The position numbers and the translations under genes were made by a program. The notes under the pieces were generated by a model, which searched no databases, was not told the origin of the DNA, and worked only from the letters and a program-made list of their open reading frames with translations. A stretch of DNA of 51,609 nt. Origin: an uncultured delta proteobacterium (GTDB lineage: Bacteria > Myxococcota_A > Polyangia > Haliangiales > Haliangiaceae). The stretch is from the NCBI GenBank assembly GCA_900696455.1, contig CAADGB010000483.1:1-51609 (forward strand), given 5' to 3'. Below are positions 33,874 to 40,185 of this stretch, piece after piece. The number at the start of each line of letters is the position of its first letter. Within the stretch, counting starts at the first letter, position 1.

Positions 33874-34992
33874 ATGTCCCTCGCATACGAAGCCCTCGTC
33901 GAGCCCGCCGCGGCCACCGCCGCCGCCCACGCCGCCGCCACCGATCGCGGCGCCTTCCCCACCGCGGCCCTCGCCGCCCTCCGCGACGCCGGCCTCCTCG
34001 GCCTGGTGTCGAGCGCCGAGGTCGGCGGCCTCGGCGCCGGCCTGCCCGCCGCCGCGTTCGTCGTCGAGCGCCTCGCCCGCGAGTGCGGCTCGACCGCCAT
34101 GGTGGTGTGCATGCACTACTGCGCCACCGCCGTGATCGAGGCCCACGGCCCGCACGCGATCCGGCAGGCGGTCGCCCGCGGCGAGCACCTGTCGACCCTC
34201 GCCTTCTCCGAGGTCGGCTCGCGCAGCCAGTTCTGGGCCCCGGTCAGCACCGCCGCCGCCGACGGCGATCGGGTCCGCCTCACGGCGCGCAAGAGCTGGG
34301 TGACCTCGGCCCGCCACGCCGACAGCTACGTGTGGTCGAGCCGGCCCACCGCCGGCGCCGAACTGTCGACGCTGTGGCTGGTGCCACGCACCACCGCCGG
34401 CCTCCGCGTCGCCGACGCCGGCTTCGACGGCCTCGGCCTGCGCGGCAACGACTCGAGCCCGGTGACCGCCGAGGACGTGGTGGTGCCCGCGAGCGCGCGG
34501 CTCGGCGACGACGGCGCCGGCTTCGGCCTGATGATGGGCACGGTCCTGCCCTGGTTCAACGTGCTGTCGGCCTCGGTGTCGTGCGGCTTGATGGAGGCCG
34601 CGGTCACGCGCACCGCCGCCCACGCCGGCGCCACGCGCTTCGAGCACGCCGGCTCGACCATCGCCGACCTGCCCACGATCCGAGCCCACGTCGCCCGCAT
34701 GCGCGTCCGCGCCGATCAGAGCAAGGCGCTGCTCGCCGACACCGTCGCCGCCATCGGTGGCGGCCGCGCCGACGCCACCCTGCGCGTGCTCGAGAGCAAG
34801 GCCGCCGCCGGCGACGCCGCCACCGAGGTCACCGACCTGGCGATGCGGGTGTGCGGCGGGGCCGCCTTCCGCAAGGAGGTCGCGGTCGAGCGCGTGTTCC
34901 GCGACGCCCGCGCCGCCGCGGTCATGGCGCCCACCAGCGACGTCCTCCACGACTTCATCGGCAAGGCCGTGTGCGGCCTGCCGCTCTTCTGA
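33874..34992 (+). CDS. Acyl-CoA-dehydrogenase-like flavoprotein
   Basis: 372-aa FAD-dependent protein of the acyl-CoA dehydrogenase superfamily, started at ATG 33874 with GGAG 5 nt upstream. The N-terminal helical domain has FPTAALAALRDAGLLGLVSS (about 28-48) and GGLGAGLPAAAFVVERLARE. The middle beta domain has LAFSEVGSRSQFW (about 110, position of the FAD-binding (T/S)EPxxGSD) and KSWVTSARHADSYVW (about 137). The C-terminal helical domain has AAIGGGRADATLRVLESKAAAGD and VCGGAAFRKEVAVERVFRDAR. The catalytic Glu of true acyl-CoA dehydrogenases is not obvious, and the superfamily also includes monooxygenases such as DszC and SfnB-type sulfur-acquisition flavoproteins. It is first in a three-gene cassette; the PhnD-like gene follows after 11 nt. 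Confidence 0.82.
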   Translation: MSLAYEALVEPAAATAAAHAAATDRGAFPTAALAALRDAGLLGLVSSAEVGGLGAGLPAAAFVVERLARECGSTAMVVCMHYCATAVIEAHGPHAIRQAVARGEHLSTLAFSEVGSRSQFWAPVSTAAADGDRVRLTARKSWVTSARHADSYVWSSRPTAGAELSTLWLVPRTTAGLRVADAGFDGLGLRGNDSSPVTAEDVVVPASARLGDDGAGFGLMMGTVLPWFNVLSASVSCGLMEAAVTRTAAHAGATRFEHAGSTIADLPTIRAHVARMRVRADQSKALLADTVAAIGGGRADATLRVLESKAAAGDAATEVTDLAMRVCGGAAFRKEVAVERVFRDARAAAVMAPTSDVLHDFIGKAVCGLPLF

Positions 34993-35003
34993 AGGAGCCC
35001 ACC

Positions 35004-35831
35004 ATGACCGAGCTCGTCCTCGGCGCCGTCGCCTACGACGCCAAGGTCGTCCCCATCTGGGACGGCTTCAAGGCCTACTTCGCCGCCCGCGGCCTGCCCT
35101 TCGACTACGTGCTCTACACGACCTACGAGCGCCAGGTCGAGGCCCACCTCCGCGGCCACGTCGACGTGGCGTGGAACTCGCCCCTGGCCTGGCTCGAGAC
35201 CGAGCACGCCGCCGCCGCCGGGCGGCGAGCCGAGGCCATCGCCATGCGCGACACCGATCGCGATCTGACCAGCGTGGTGCTGGCGCGCGCCGACGGGCCG
35301 ATCGCGACCCCGGCCGACCTCGCCGGCCGCCGCCTCGGCGTCGGCGCCCGCGACTCCCCGCAGGCCACGCTCATCCCGCTCGACGCCCTGGCCGCGGCCG
35401 GGGTCGCGCCGGAGGTCGTCCTCCACGACGTGCTCGTCGGCAAGCACGGCGACCACGTCGGCGGCGAGCGCGACGCGGTGCGCGCGCTCCTGGCCGGGAC
35501 CGTGGACGCCGCGTGCGTGCTCGACGCCAACCGCCTGGCCTTCGCCCGCGAGGGCCTCTTGCCCCCGGGCGCCACCCGCGTCGTCCTCCAGACCGAGCCC
35601 TACGACCACTGCAACTTCACGGTCCTCGACGACGCGCCGCCCGCGGTGACGCGCCTCCGCGAGCTGCTCCTGGCCATGTCCTACGACGACCCGGAGGTGC
35701 GCCCGCTGCTCGACCTCGAGGGGTTGACGCGCTGGCTGCCGGGTCGCACCAGCGGCTACCGCGCGCTGGCGCGGGCGGTGACGGCCAGCGGCTGGCTGGC
35801 GGCGTGGGCGGCCGGGCGGGCGGCGCGGTGA
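35004..35831 (+). CDS. PhnD-type substrate-binding protein without signal peptide
   Basis: 275 aa. Fold and motifs are those of PhnD/phosphonate-class type 2 binding proteins: LGAVAYDAKVVPIWDGFKAY (about 5-25), YTTYERQVEAHLRGHVDVAW (about 38), ATPADLAGRRLGVGARDSPQ (about 101), RALLAGTVDAACVLDANRL, EPYDHCNFTVLDD (about 202). AAGGAG at 34992-34997 fixes ATG 35004, and the protein begins directly with strand 1, so it has no export signal and should be cytoplasmic. No permease or ATPase gene is nearby. It may therefore be an intracellular binding protein or have become an enzyme subunit. It overlaps the next gene (GTGA). Confidence 0.8.
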   Translation: MTELVLGAVAYDAKVVPIWDGFKAYFAARGLPFDYVLYTTYERQVEAHLRGHVDVAWNSPLAWLETEHAAAAGRRAEAIAMRDTDRDLTSVVLARADGPIATPADLAGRRLGVGARDSPQATLIPLDALAAAGVAPEVVLHDVLVGKHGDHVGGERDAVRALLAGTVDAACVLDANRLAFAREGLLPPGATRVVLQTEPYDHCNFTVLDDAPPAVTRLRELLLAMSYDDPEVRPLLDLEGLTRWLPGRTSGYRALARAVTASGWLAAWAAGRAAR

Positions 35832-37003
35832 GCGCGACGGCCCCCGCCGAGCTCGAGCTGGTGGACCTCGGCCTCGACGAGGGCGGCCACCTCCTGGTCG
35901 AGCGCGGCCTGCGCCTGGGCGGCGGCGAGCTGCTGGTCCGCGGCGGCGCCGCCACCGTCGCGATCGATCTGCCGGCGTGGTGCCGCGCGCGCGGTCACGC
36001 CTGCGCGCCGGCCGCGGGTGGCTGGCACGTCCGCGCCGGCCAGATCGACCGCTGGCGCGGGGCCGAGCGCGCCGGCGAGGTCGCGGCGCCGTCGGCCCAC
36101 GCCCCCGCCCGCTGGGGCCTGGCGGCGCGCGGCGCCCTGGTCGAGGCCGGCGCGCCCACCCTCGACCTGCCGCTGGCCGACCGGCGCACGATGTGGGCGG
36201 ACGAGGCGGCGCGCCTCTACGCCCAGGCGGTGGCGGCGCAGTGGGATCCGGCCACCGCGATCCCGTGGGACGCGCCGGCCGACCACCCGGCCGAGGGCGA
36301 GGACGCGGTGGTCCAGCTCATGACCTACCTGATCGAGAACGAGACCGCGGCGCTGCTGGTGCCGGCGCGCTTCCTCGGCCGCGTCCATCCCCACTTCCGC
36401 GAGGTGATGCAGCTCCTCGCCGTCCAGATCGCCGACGAGGCCCGCCACGTCGAGGTCTTCACGCGCCGCGCCTGCCTGCGCCGCGACGCCCTCGGGCTGT
36501 CGACCGCCGGCGGCCAGGCCTCGCTGGCGACGCTGTTCGACGAGCCCGACTTCGCGATCGCCAGCTTCCTGCTGTCGGTGCTGGGCGAAGGCAGCTTCCT
36601 GGCGCTCCTGGGGTTCGTCCGCGATCACGCGCCCGACCGCTGCACCGCCGCGCTCGCCCGCCTCGCCGCCCAGGACGAGGCCCGCCACGTCGCGTTCGGC
36701 CTCGCCCACCTGCGCCGGCACGTCGACGAGGAGCCGGCCCTGCGCGGCCGGCTCGCCGCCGCCATCGAGCGCCGCCACGCCGCGCTCGCCCACACCGCGG
36801 GCCTCAACCGCGAGGTCTTCGACGCTCTGGTCCTGCTGGCCGCCGGCGGCTGGGCGCCCGCGGACCTGCGGCGCGGCCACGCCGCGGTGGTCGAGCTGGT
36901 GCGGACGATGGACGAGGGGCGGCGTCAGCGCCTGGTCCGCCTCGGCTTCGCGCCCGACGACGCGGCCCGTCTCTCCGCCCTCCACACCCGCAACTTCATG
37001 TGA
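35828..37003 (+). CDS. TusA-like/ferritin-like di-iron fusion protein
   Basis: 391 aa from GTG 35828. Residues about 5-85 have the spacing of a TusA-type sulfur-carrier fold (GGGELLVRGG, VAIDLPAWCRARGH, GGWHVRAG) but lack the Cys-Pro motif used for sulfur transfer. Residues about 150-370 form a four-helix ferritin-like domain with two E...ExxH sets: Glu in LIENETAAL (about 171), DEARHVEVF (about 203-206), Glu in LGEGSFLALL (about 254) and DEARHVAFG (about 283-286). A carboxylate-bridged di-iron site is therefore expected, as in oxidases and oxygenases of this superfamily. No signal peptide. Third gene of the cassette with the flavoprotein and the cytoplasmic PhnD-like protein. Substrate unknown. 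Confidence 0.75.
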   Translation: MSATAPAELELVDLGLDEGGHLLVERGLRLGGGELLVRGGAATVAIDLPAWCRARGHACAPAAGGWHVRAGQIDRWRGAERAGEVAAPSAHAPARWGLAARGALVEAGAPTLDLPLADRRTMWADEAARLYAQAVAAQWDPATAIPWDAPADHPAEGEDAVVQLMTYLIENETAALLVPARFLGRVHPHFREVMQLLAVQIADEARHVEVFTRRACLRRDALGLSTAGGQASLATLFDEPDFAIASFLLSVLGEGSFLALLGFVRDHAPDRCTAALARLAAQDEARHVAFGLAHLRRHVDEEPALRGRLAAAIERRHAALAHTAGLNREVFDALVLLAAGGWAPADLRRGHAAVVELVRTMDEGRRQRLVRLGFAPDDAARLSALHTRNFM

Positions 37004-37538: not shown

Positions 37539-38185
37539 CTACCGGCGCCTCCGGGATCCCTGGCCGTACGTGGCGAAGCGGGCGCGCACGCGCTCGAGCT
37601 CGTCGTGGTCGAGGACGTGGGGCGACCCGAGCTGGGCGGCGTGCCAGTACTGGGCGGCCAGGGTCTCGACCTCGGCGGCGAGGCGCAGCGCGCTCGCCAG
37701 CGCGTCGCCGAGCGCGACCAGGCCGTGCTTGGCGAGCAGGCAGGCCCGGCCGCCGGCGAGCGCGGCGGTGGCGGCCCGCGCCAGCTCGTCGCTGCCGAAG
37801 GTGGCGTAGGCGGCGCACGGGATCTCGTCGCCACCGGCCAGCGCGACCATGTAGTGCACCGCCGGGATCGGGCGGCGCAGCATCGACACCGAGGTCGCGA
37901 ACAGCGAGTGGGTGTGGACGATCGCGGCGGCGTCGGCGCGGGCCACCAGCAGATCGCGGTGGAGCCGCCACTCGGTGGACGGCGCGCGCTGGCCGGGTCG
38001 GACGCTGCCGTCGAGCTTGACCTCGACCACGTCGGCCGCCGTCAGCTCGGCGTACGGCATGCCCGACGGCGTGATCAGGAACCCGCCCGCCGAGCGCGCG
38101 CTGACGTTGCCCGACATGCCCGGGGTCAGCCCCAGCTCGCTCATGCGCCGCGCCGTGGCCACCAGCTCGCTGCGCAGGTGGAGGG

Positions 38186-38189
<4 letters not shown>
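37539..38189 (-). CDS. Class II aldolase/adducin family protein (probable Ald2 or MtnB)
   Basis: 216-aa zinc enzyme. TPGMSGNVSAR (about 22) and ITPSGMPYAEL (about 37) bind the phosphate; AAIVHTHSLFATSV (about 90) holds the His-x-His metal pair, and a further His lies in QYWHAAQL (about 190). GTG 38189 overlaps the mtnA stop by four bases, and mtnA overlaps mtnP, so it acts in methylthio/deoxyadenosine salvage. Two roles are possible: MtnB dehydratase of the full methionine salvage pathway, or the Ald2 aldolase of the DHAP shunt, which cleaves the MtnA product to DHAP and an aldehyde. No mtnC, mtnD or mtnK follows, which favours Ald2. Confidence 0.8.
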
Positions 38190-39291
<1,102 letters not shown>

Positions 39292-39295
<4 letters not shown>

Positions 39296-40185
39296 CGCCC
39301 CCGCCCCAGCACCCGCCCCGCCACCGCGTCGAGCCGCGCGCACAGCGCGGGGTCGCGGGCCTCGGGCGCGGTGAGCACGGCGCTGTCGAGGGCGCGATCG
39401 CAGCCGTGCGGGCACGGCGCCGGGTGGGCGCCGGCCACCGGCAGCGCCGCGGCCAGGAGCCGGCGCGCGCTGGCGGCGTTGGCGGTGAGGACCCGGATGA
39501 CGTCGGCGACCTGGACGTGATCGTGGTCGGGGTGCCAGCAGTCGAAGTCGGTGACCATGGCCACGGTCGCGTAGCAGAGCTCGGCCTCGCGCGCGAGCTT
39601 GGCCTCGGGCAGGTTGGTCATGCCGATCACGCTCGCGCCCAGGCCGCGGTGCAGCTCCGACTCGGCGCGGGTCGAGAACTGGGGCCCCTCCATGGCGACG
39701 TAGGTGCCGCCGTCGACCACCGGCAGCCCGAGCCCCTGCCCGGTCGCCACCAGCGCCGCGCTCAGGCGCGCGCACACCGGGTGGCCGAACGCGACGTGGG
39801 CGACCAGCCCGGTGCCGAAGAAGGTCCGGGGTCCGCGCAGCGTGCGATCGATGAACTGATCGACGACGACCATCGTCCCCGGCGGCAGCTCGGCCCGCAG
39901 CGAGCCGACCGCGCTCACCGAGATGACCTGGCCGCAGCCGGCGCGCTTGAGGGCGTCGATGTTGGCGCGGAAGTCGATCTCGTGGGGCGGGATGCGGTGG
40001 CCGCGGCCGTGGCGGGGCAGGAACACGACCTTGACGTCGCCGAGCCGGCCGACCAGGAGCTGATCCGAAGGCTGGCCGAAGGGCGAGCGGACCGTGATCC
40101 ACTGCTGGTCGGTCAGCCCGTCGAGGTCGTAGAGGCCGGTGCCGCCGACGATGCCGATCGCGCCCGCCTGGGTCGACATGGTCAT
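39292..40185 (-). CDS. mtnP: S-methyl-5'-thioadenosine phosphorylase
   Basis: 297-aa purine-nucleoside phosphorylase family member that splits methylthioadenosine (a by-product of polyamine and homoserine-lactone synthesis) with phosphate into adenine and methylthioribose-1-phosphate. Motifs: IGIVGGTGLYDLDGL (about 10), FLPRHGRGHRIPPHEI (phosphate/ribose site, about 54), VSAVGSLRAELPPG (about 90), VAMEGPQFSTRAE (about 165) and MTNLPEAKLAREAELCY with TDFDCW (about 190-215), diagnostic for MTAP over PNP. ATG 40185 or the in-frame ATG 40179 are both possible. It is the first gene of the mtnP-mtnA-aldolase operon; the promoter should lie in 40186-40304. Confidence 0.94.

Follow-up and report, generated by a model that had tools for sequence, protein, structure and literature searches.

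The 51,609-nucleotide stretch of DNA analysed here (the window; contig CAADGB010000483.1 of an uncultured delta proteobacterium) carries three adjoining genes, A, B and C, which encode a flavoprotein, a cytosolic protein with an oxyanion-binding fold, and a fusion of a TusA-like module to a di-iron domain. A and B form the core pair of a module found in more than ten phyla, in which the third, catalytic partner is replaced from lineage to lineage. The di-iron form (the one seen here) and a MetE-like form track selenium use; a radical S-adenosylmethionine (radical-SAM) form does not. Our preferred reading, held with middling confidence, is that the trio is one form of a selenium-recovery module, whose di-iron and MetE forms have a part in the selenium economy and most likely supply selenide to SelD. 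Operon linkage, the family of a regulator beside some loci, and co-occurrence with SelD point to selenium as the substrate class. How aerobic bacteria that use selenocysteine (Sec) obtain and recycle selenide for SelD is poorly known, and the reading assigns a specific, testable role to three families that are uncharacterised and occur in hundreds of genomes.

A core pair with an exchangeable third partner

The original prediction, made from the sequence alone, saw in the trio a functional unit containing a cytosolic anion-binding-fold protein. Its wide conservation and the fold of B uphold that view. A, B and C are syntenic in more than 20 of the 284 genomes of the window's phylum, with 47-70% protein identity; because the same gene order recurs across so many genomes, the trio is not a chance cluster. 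Across phyla, the core is the A-B pair. Scanning an alignment of B against 84,980 species genomes gave 532 candidate B loci, and the best 80 of the 532 came from Planctomycetota, Acidobacteriota, Myxococcota, Bacillota, Actinomycetota, Pseudomonadota, Chloroflexota, Armatimonadota, Verrucomicrobiota, Latescibacterota and Thermoplasmata. With 27 further loci, 107 were typed (six are second extractions of loci already included, so the counts are slightly inflated). The third partner beside A-B was C at 49 loci, a radical-SAM protein of the Rv1681 type at 26 and a MetE-like protein at 19, with none nearby at 13. Gene order is permuted (A-B-C, C-A-B, A-C-B), and linkage is retained.

These partners are nearly exclusive of one another. 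In none of the 94 automatically typed loci did partners of two types stand three genes or fewer from B; the exception is locus L083, where a DsrE-like, TusA-OsmC and MetE set lies a few kb from A-B-C. A quick tree of 96 B proteins requires four or more changes of partner type, a minimum count. A plain aerobic/anaerobic swap of di-iron for radical-SAM enzyme is not favoured, as both occur in aerobic lineages (e.g. Bradyrhizobium, Bacillus).

The MetE-like partner is usually accompanied by an OsmC-like protein, which on our reading of the sequences lacks the usual peroxidatic Cys positions. The MetE-like partner itself retains the zinc residues H255, C257, E291 and C348 and the homocysteine-site residues S14, E65 and D201 (roles from PMC7857596). 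Because these residues of methionine synthases are kept, methyl transfer to homocysteine would be its most likely chemistry. The MetE form is also present in the window's phylum, where one genome has the order OsmC-like, B, MetE-like (L062:4687-7141).

The radical-SAM partner matches the Rv1681 family NF049973 (495 bits, cut-off 380). Its loci (e.g. L169, L176, L177 and L142) frequently have genes for DUF2064/TIGR04282, GT2, GT87, DoxX-like and nucleoside phosphorylase proteins in their vicinity. Some have a second radical-SAM/SPASM protein, and most genomes with the radical-SAM form are without SelD. In one genus (L063-L067), B occurs without A or C and adjoins a conserved gene for a 244-residue phosphoesterase-like protein; SelD is present, with two SelD matches in some cases.

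A TusA-like module shared by unrelated catalysts

Over its first 85 columns the C alignment matches the N-terminal part of the radical-SAM protein (hhalign 97.1%, E 6e-11); there is no alignment between the catalytic parts. Taken singly, six of ten radical-SAM proteins have a Pfam TusA match. Fusions of this module to MetE in L147 (hhalign against C, 97.5%, E 5e-12) and to an OsmC-like protein in L083 also occur. Such fusions are rare, the usual carriers being C and the radical-SAM protein. The Cys-Pro motif is absent from the module in both of these carriers. One accessory domain thus rides on enzymes of three kinds (di-iron, radical-SAM and, in rare cases, zinc methyltransferase-fold), an unusual case of non-homologous replacement within one module. 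On our reading of the sequences, a DsrE-like gene precedes the TusA-MetE fusion in L147, and a DsrE-like protein also lies beside the MetE form in L083.

Association with selenium genes

SelD, which is found in 175 of the 284 genomes of the window's phylum, is present in all 31 genomes with a strong B match and in 144 of the 253 without B (Fisher p 1e-7; p 0.003 with 12 families as units), although the SelD matches may include some SelD-fusion proteins. In the genome of the window itself there is a SelB and a SelD with one in-frame TGA. In other phyla SelD accompanies the di-iron form in 37 of 41 genomes and the MetE form in 14 of 16, compared with 7 of 23 for the radical-SAM form and 27 of 49 for B-negative controls. 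SelB was uninformative as a sharper marker than SelD, since 42 of 49 SelD-positive genomes without B also carry it.

Direct linkage is seen in three lineages. In an actinobacterial genome (L174), selD-tRNA(Sec)-selA-orf-selB-A-B-C runs along one strand, with about 136 nt from selB to A, and C there retains its TusA-like module. Two Chloroflexi (L134, L141) have tRNA(Sec)-selD-OsmC-A-B-MetE. An acidobacterial locus (L140) reads OsmC-B-MetE-senA-senB-egtD, with senA scoring 523 bits (cut-off 420). A rough Poisson estimate with assumed gene counts puts the chance of three independent immediate adjacencies to selenium genes at 2e-4. In addition, the LysR regulators beside four loci (L089, L098, L131, L172) have as their best model the selenium-metabolism family NF040786, at 225-249 bits for a cut-off of 250 and with a lead of 73-88 bits. 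A methionine-gamma-lyase-like gene lies upstream in L139.

The flavoprotein A

A was predicted to be an acyl-CoA-dehydrogenase-fold flavoprotein without the catalytic Glu, and this holds. The N, M and C domains of the Pfam acyl-CoA dehydrogenases are all matched (Acyl-CoA_dh_1/N/M), and among NCBIfam models Rv1679/FadE16 (NF049984) scores highest, with 415.7 bits, below the curated cut-off of 600. At the Glu position of short- and medium-chain acyl-CoA dehydrogenases (SCAD/MCAD), Ala352 stands in 28 of 28 homologues (VMAPT where IYEGT is expected), and Phe228 occupies that of isovaleryl-CoA dehydrogenase (IVD), again in all 28. These are the two known positions of the catalytic Glu in the family. 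K140 and T144 are invariant among homologues, and sequence motifs suggest that the three-domain fold binds FAD. A thus belongs to the acyl-CoA dehydrogenases by fold and not by catalytic glutamate; because both Glu positions are non-Glu, we regard it as a flavoprotein fold without the known acyl-CoA dehydrogenase catalysis.

The cytosolic protein B

The description of B as a PhnD-class, cytosolic protein lacking signal peptide and transporter genes proved accurate. It matches Pfam Phosphonate-bd at 114 bits. Its best NCBIfam model is the Rv1680-like NF049985 (238 bits, below the curated cut-off of 400), and the second is TIGR04553, a 'putative selenate ABC transporter substrate-binding protein' (61.5 bits). 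In the AlphaFold model (pLDDT 96.2) strand 1 lies at the very start, so B has no leader or signal peptide. No transporter genes were found among its neighbours. B therefore has the type II binding-protein fold without the export signal and adjacent ABC transporter of that class.

The nearest structures are HtxB, PtxB, PhnD and ArrX (Z 23-24) and AioX (Z 20-21), whose ligands (hypophosphite, phosphite, methylphosphonate, arsenate and arsenite) are small phosphorus and arsenic oxyanions. Ten residues are invariant in 39 of 39 proteins: Y41, W57, R82, D117, S118, H148, D150, E155, H202 and C203. In the pocket region the anion-loop Ser118 and His148 are retained, with Arg82, Asp150, Glu155 and His202-Cys203 as additional invariant residues. 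A decayed transporter part is ruled out by the invariant residues and the missing leader. The published annotation of Rv1680 is that of a putative phosphonate transporter component (PMC8562490); the proposed role would correct annotations of this type.

The fusion protein C

C was likewise correctly described as a TusA-like module without Cys-Pro joined to a ferritin-like domain with two E...ExxH sets. The window's C alone falls below a Pfam TusA match; 23 of its 28 homologues do have one, and the TusA structures 1dcj and 3lvj are matched by the profile of the family. C thus has the fold of the TusA sulfurtransferases and lacks their Cys-Pro motif. All 28 homologues keep the di-iron ligands E172, E204xxH207, E254 and E284xxH287 without change. 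In the model (pLDDT 90.6) the closest fold is that of the azoxy synthase VlmB (8wvr, Z 22.8), followed by aldehyde-deformylating oxygenase (ADO) and R2lox at Z 21-22. Judged by the E, ExxH, E, ExxH set in a predicted four-helix bundle (fold Z 21-23), C would belong to the carboxylate-bridged di-iron class.

Several C-like sequences lie outside the module. Tandem di-iron paralogues of about 35% identity, without TusA-like module or A-B partners, are common in the window's phylum (L025-L031) and were not counted with the trio. In two of these loci (L029, L030) the upstream copy lacks the ligand motifs (FDAARMA/FDASRLA, compared with DEARH in the other copy), which suggests an active/inactive pair. 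A separate open reading frame (ORF; L072:1304-1612), about 6.5 kb from the trio there, resembles the final 60 residues of C (about 66% identity) and is probably the remnant of a duplicate.

Layout of the locus and its flanks

The ORFs are laid out as the original prediction had it. They share one strand, with an 11-nt gap from A to B and a 4-nt overlap of B and C (Table 1), and all three are strongly coding by codon-position composition. Upstream of A, Rfam gave no RNA element or riboswitch at gathering score, the one match being a tRNA elsewhere. A plasmid search matched nothing.

Table 1. Positions of the trio and its domains in the window, and of the additional gene set at locus L083
Feature	Position	Strand	Remarks
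Gene A: acyl-CoA-dehydrogenase-fold flavoprotein, Rv1679/FadE16-like, without catalytic Glu	33874..34992	+	372 aa; Pfam, NCBIfam, 28 homologues
Gene B: cytosolic PhnD/PtxB-fold protein, Rv1680-like, module core	35004..35831	+	275 aa; NCBIfam, AlphaFold model, structure matches
Gene C: TusA-like module fused to di-iron oxygenase-like domain	35828..37003	+	391 aa, GTG start
TusA-like module of C	35840..36043	+	about residues 5-72; no Cys-Pro motif; Pfam TusA in homologues, hhalign
Di-iron domain of C (predicted)	36182..37000	+	about residues 119-391; ligands E172, E204, H207, E254, E284, H287
DsrE-like, TusA-OsmC fusion and MetE-like genes	L083:2-2096		run on one strand

Adjoining the trio on the minus strand (37539-40185) is a salvage set of the dihydroxyacetone phosphate (DHAP)-shunt type: methylthioadenosine (MTA) phosphorylase, methylthioribose-1-phosphate isomerase and class II aldolase. 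At L170 and L169, too, MTA phosphorylase is encoded no more than a few kb from the module. On functional coupling of the trio to these methionine-salvage genes the evidence is divided: the opposite strand and a flank that is not conserved speak against it, the MTA phosphorylase near L170 and L169 in its favour.

Proposed mechanism and alternatives

In the scheme we propose, the module has a core of flavoprotein A and cytosolic oxyanion-fold protein B and a replaceable third catalyst (di-iron, MetE-like zinc or radical-SAM), with the TusA-like module probably acting as a docking part. A would oxidise, and B would hold, a small methylated selenium species such as methylselenol or methylseleninate, arising from selenide methylation or selenomethionine breakdown. 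PMC3511371 reports spontaneous methylation of selenide to methylselenol. The third enzyme would then remove the methyl group, by transfer to homocysteine in the MetE form and perhaps by oxidative stripping in the di-iron form; both chemistries would fit methyl removal from selenium. A cell making Sec in air would presumably need such a methyl-repair path. The fuller version of this scheme, a hitherto undescribed, corrinoid-independent recovery of selenium from methylated species in aerobic Sec-decoding bacteria by an A/B core and a Cys-less TusA-like module on unrelated catalysts, is put forward tentatively, as less probable than not. The oxygen dependence that the original prediction suggested is plausible in no variant but the window's, since other lineages have a radical-SAM or MetE-like enzyme where this one has the di-iron enzyme.

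Several observations weigh against selenium recovery. By sequence, A is closest to ordinary acyl-CoA dehydrogenases and not to S-oxygenating flavoenzymes. Selenium genes share an operon with the module in the three independent lineages and not at most loci, the window included. Lineage and genome size are partial confounders of the SelD co-occurrence, because SelD is common anyway (55-62% of genomes), and four di-iron and two MetE genomes, all six of them metagenome-assembled, gave no SelD match. Finally, no link to SelD is seen for the radical-SAM form, to which the Mycobacterium Rv1679-Rv1681 families belong, so the A-B chemistry is not exclusively one of selenium.

Selenium may instead be consumed by the module, with B holding selenophosphate and the third enzyme building a new selenium-containing metabolite or cofactor. 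The PhnD/PtxB-type fold of B would suit selenophosphate, an X-PO3 anion that is isosteric with phosphite and methylphosphonate, ligands of PtxB and PhnD; a third enzyme that differs between lineages would go with a variety of products; and OsmC-B-MetE adjoins senA-senB-egtD in L140. However, a position inside complete Sec operons as well as beside selenoneine genes is better explained by a common supply step, and SelD is mostly missing from the genomes with radical-SAM loci; we consider this reading unlikely. About equally improbable, in our judgement, is a cytosolic enzyme system acting on a compound of sulfur, phosphorus or arsenic, close to the view of the original prediction, with the selenium link secondary. 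The anion-binding fold of B is compatible with it, as are the TIGR04282 'arsenosugar' glycosyltransferases and nucleoside phosphorylases near radical-SAM loci and the MTA phosphorylase that lies close to the trio in the window and to the module in L170 and L169. Yet the SelD excess is confined to the di-iron and MetE forms, and the neighbours are Sec, selenoneine and selenium-type LysR genes. The phosphonate-, sulfonate- or carboxylate-like substrate suggested at the outset is not supported, as operons, LysR family and SelD co-occurrence point to selenium. That an ordinary acyl-CoA dehydrogenase, a decayed transporter component and an unrelated ferritin are chance neighbours would agree with fold-level annotations taken alone; conserved synteny already refutes it, the swapped yet linked partners and the invariant pocket and metal residues argue the same way, and we hold it to be extremely improbable. 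The trio is widely conserved, C is no bacterioferritin and B no decayed transporter part, so the grounds on which the original prediction could have fallen did not materialise.

Comparison with known systems

As originally stated, no described pathway was found that matches the trio, and no published function for these genes was found in the open-access literature, including any functional study of the Rv1679-Rv1681 genes. The general role, selenium supply, has precedents; the A-B-C protein set itself was not found described there.

The closest relatives are Rv1679 (FadE16), Rv1680 and Rv1681 (NF049984, NF049985, NF049973). The first two are homologous to A and B, and Rv1681 has the TusA-like module of C. 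The window's trio differs in that A and B fall under the curated cut-offs and the catalyst is di-iron rather than radical SAM. The MetE-form partner has the same zinc and homocysteine residues as the core methionine synthases MesA-D (PMC7857596) but, unlike them, sits with A, B and a Cys-less OsmC-like protein. B has the fold, the DS(x) anion loop and His148 in common with PtxB, HtxB, PhnD, AioX and ArrX; unlike these, it has no signal peptide or transporter and carries the extra invariant Arg82, Asp150 and His202-Cys203. Similarly, C has the fold and di-iron ligand pattern of VlmB, ADO, R2lox and AurF, but differs in its low identity (about 20%), its TusA-like fusion and an AurF Pfam score below gathering.

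Two parallels concern selenium itself. Among the selenium candidates of Lin et al. (PMC5322559) are YedF, a TusA-DsrE protein in which, as in the module, a TusA-like fold is linked to SelD, and LysR_Se, a selenium-type LysR that likewise stands beside some trio loci; A, B and C are not named there under the terms searched. A precedent is provided by the type 1 mlp clusters of anaerobes, for which Kountz and Balskus (PMC10418091) proposed methyl-selenide demethylation. Of these clusters 87% occur with Sec machinery, and the minority without selenium was assigned to methyl-sulfur metabolism. Both systems thus combine a proposed recovery of methylated selenium with strong Sec co-occurrence and a minority form without selenium. 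The mlp clusters, however, use corrinoid proteins and UroD-family methyltransferases, families to which none of the window's proteins A, B and C belongs.

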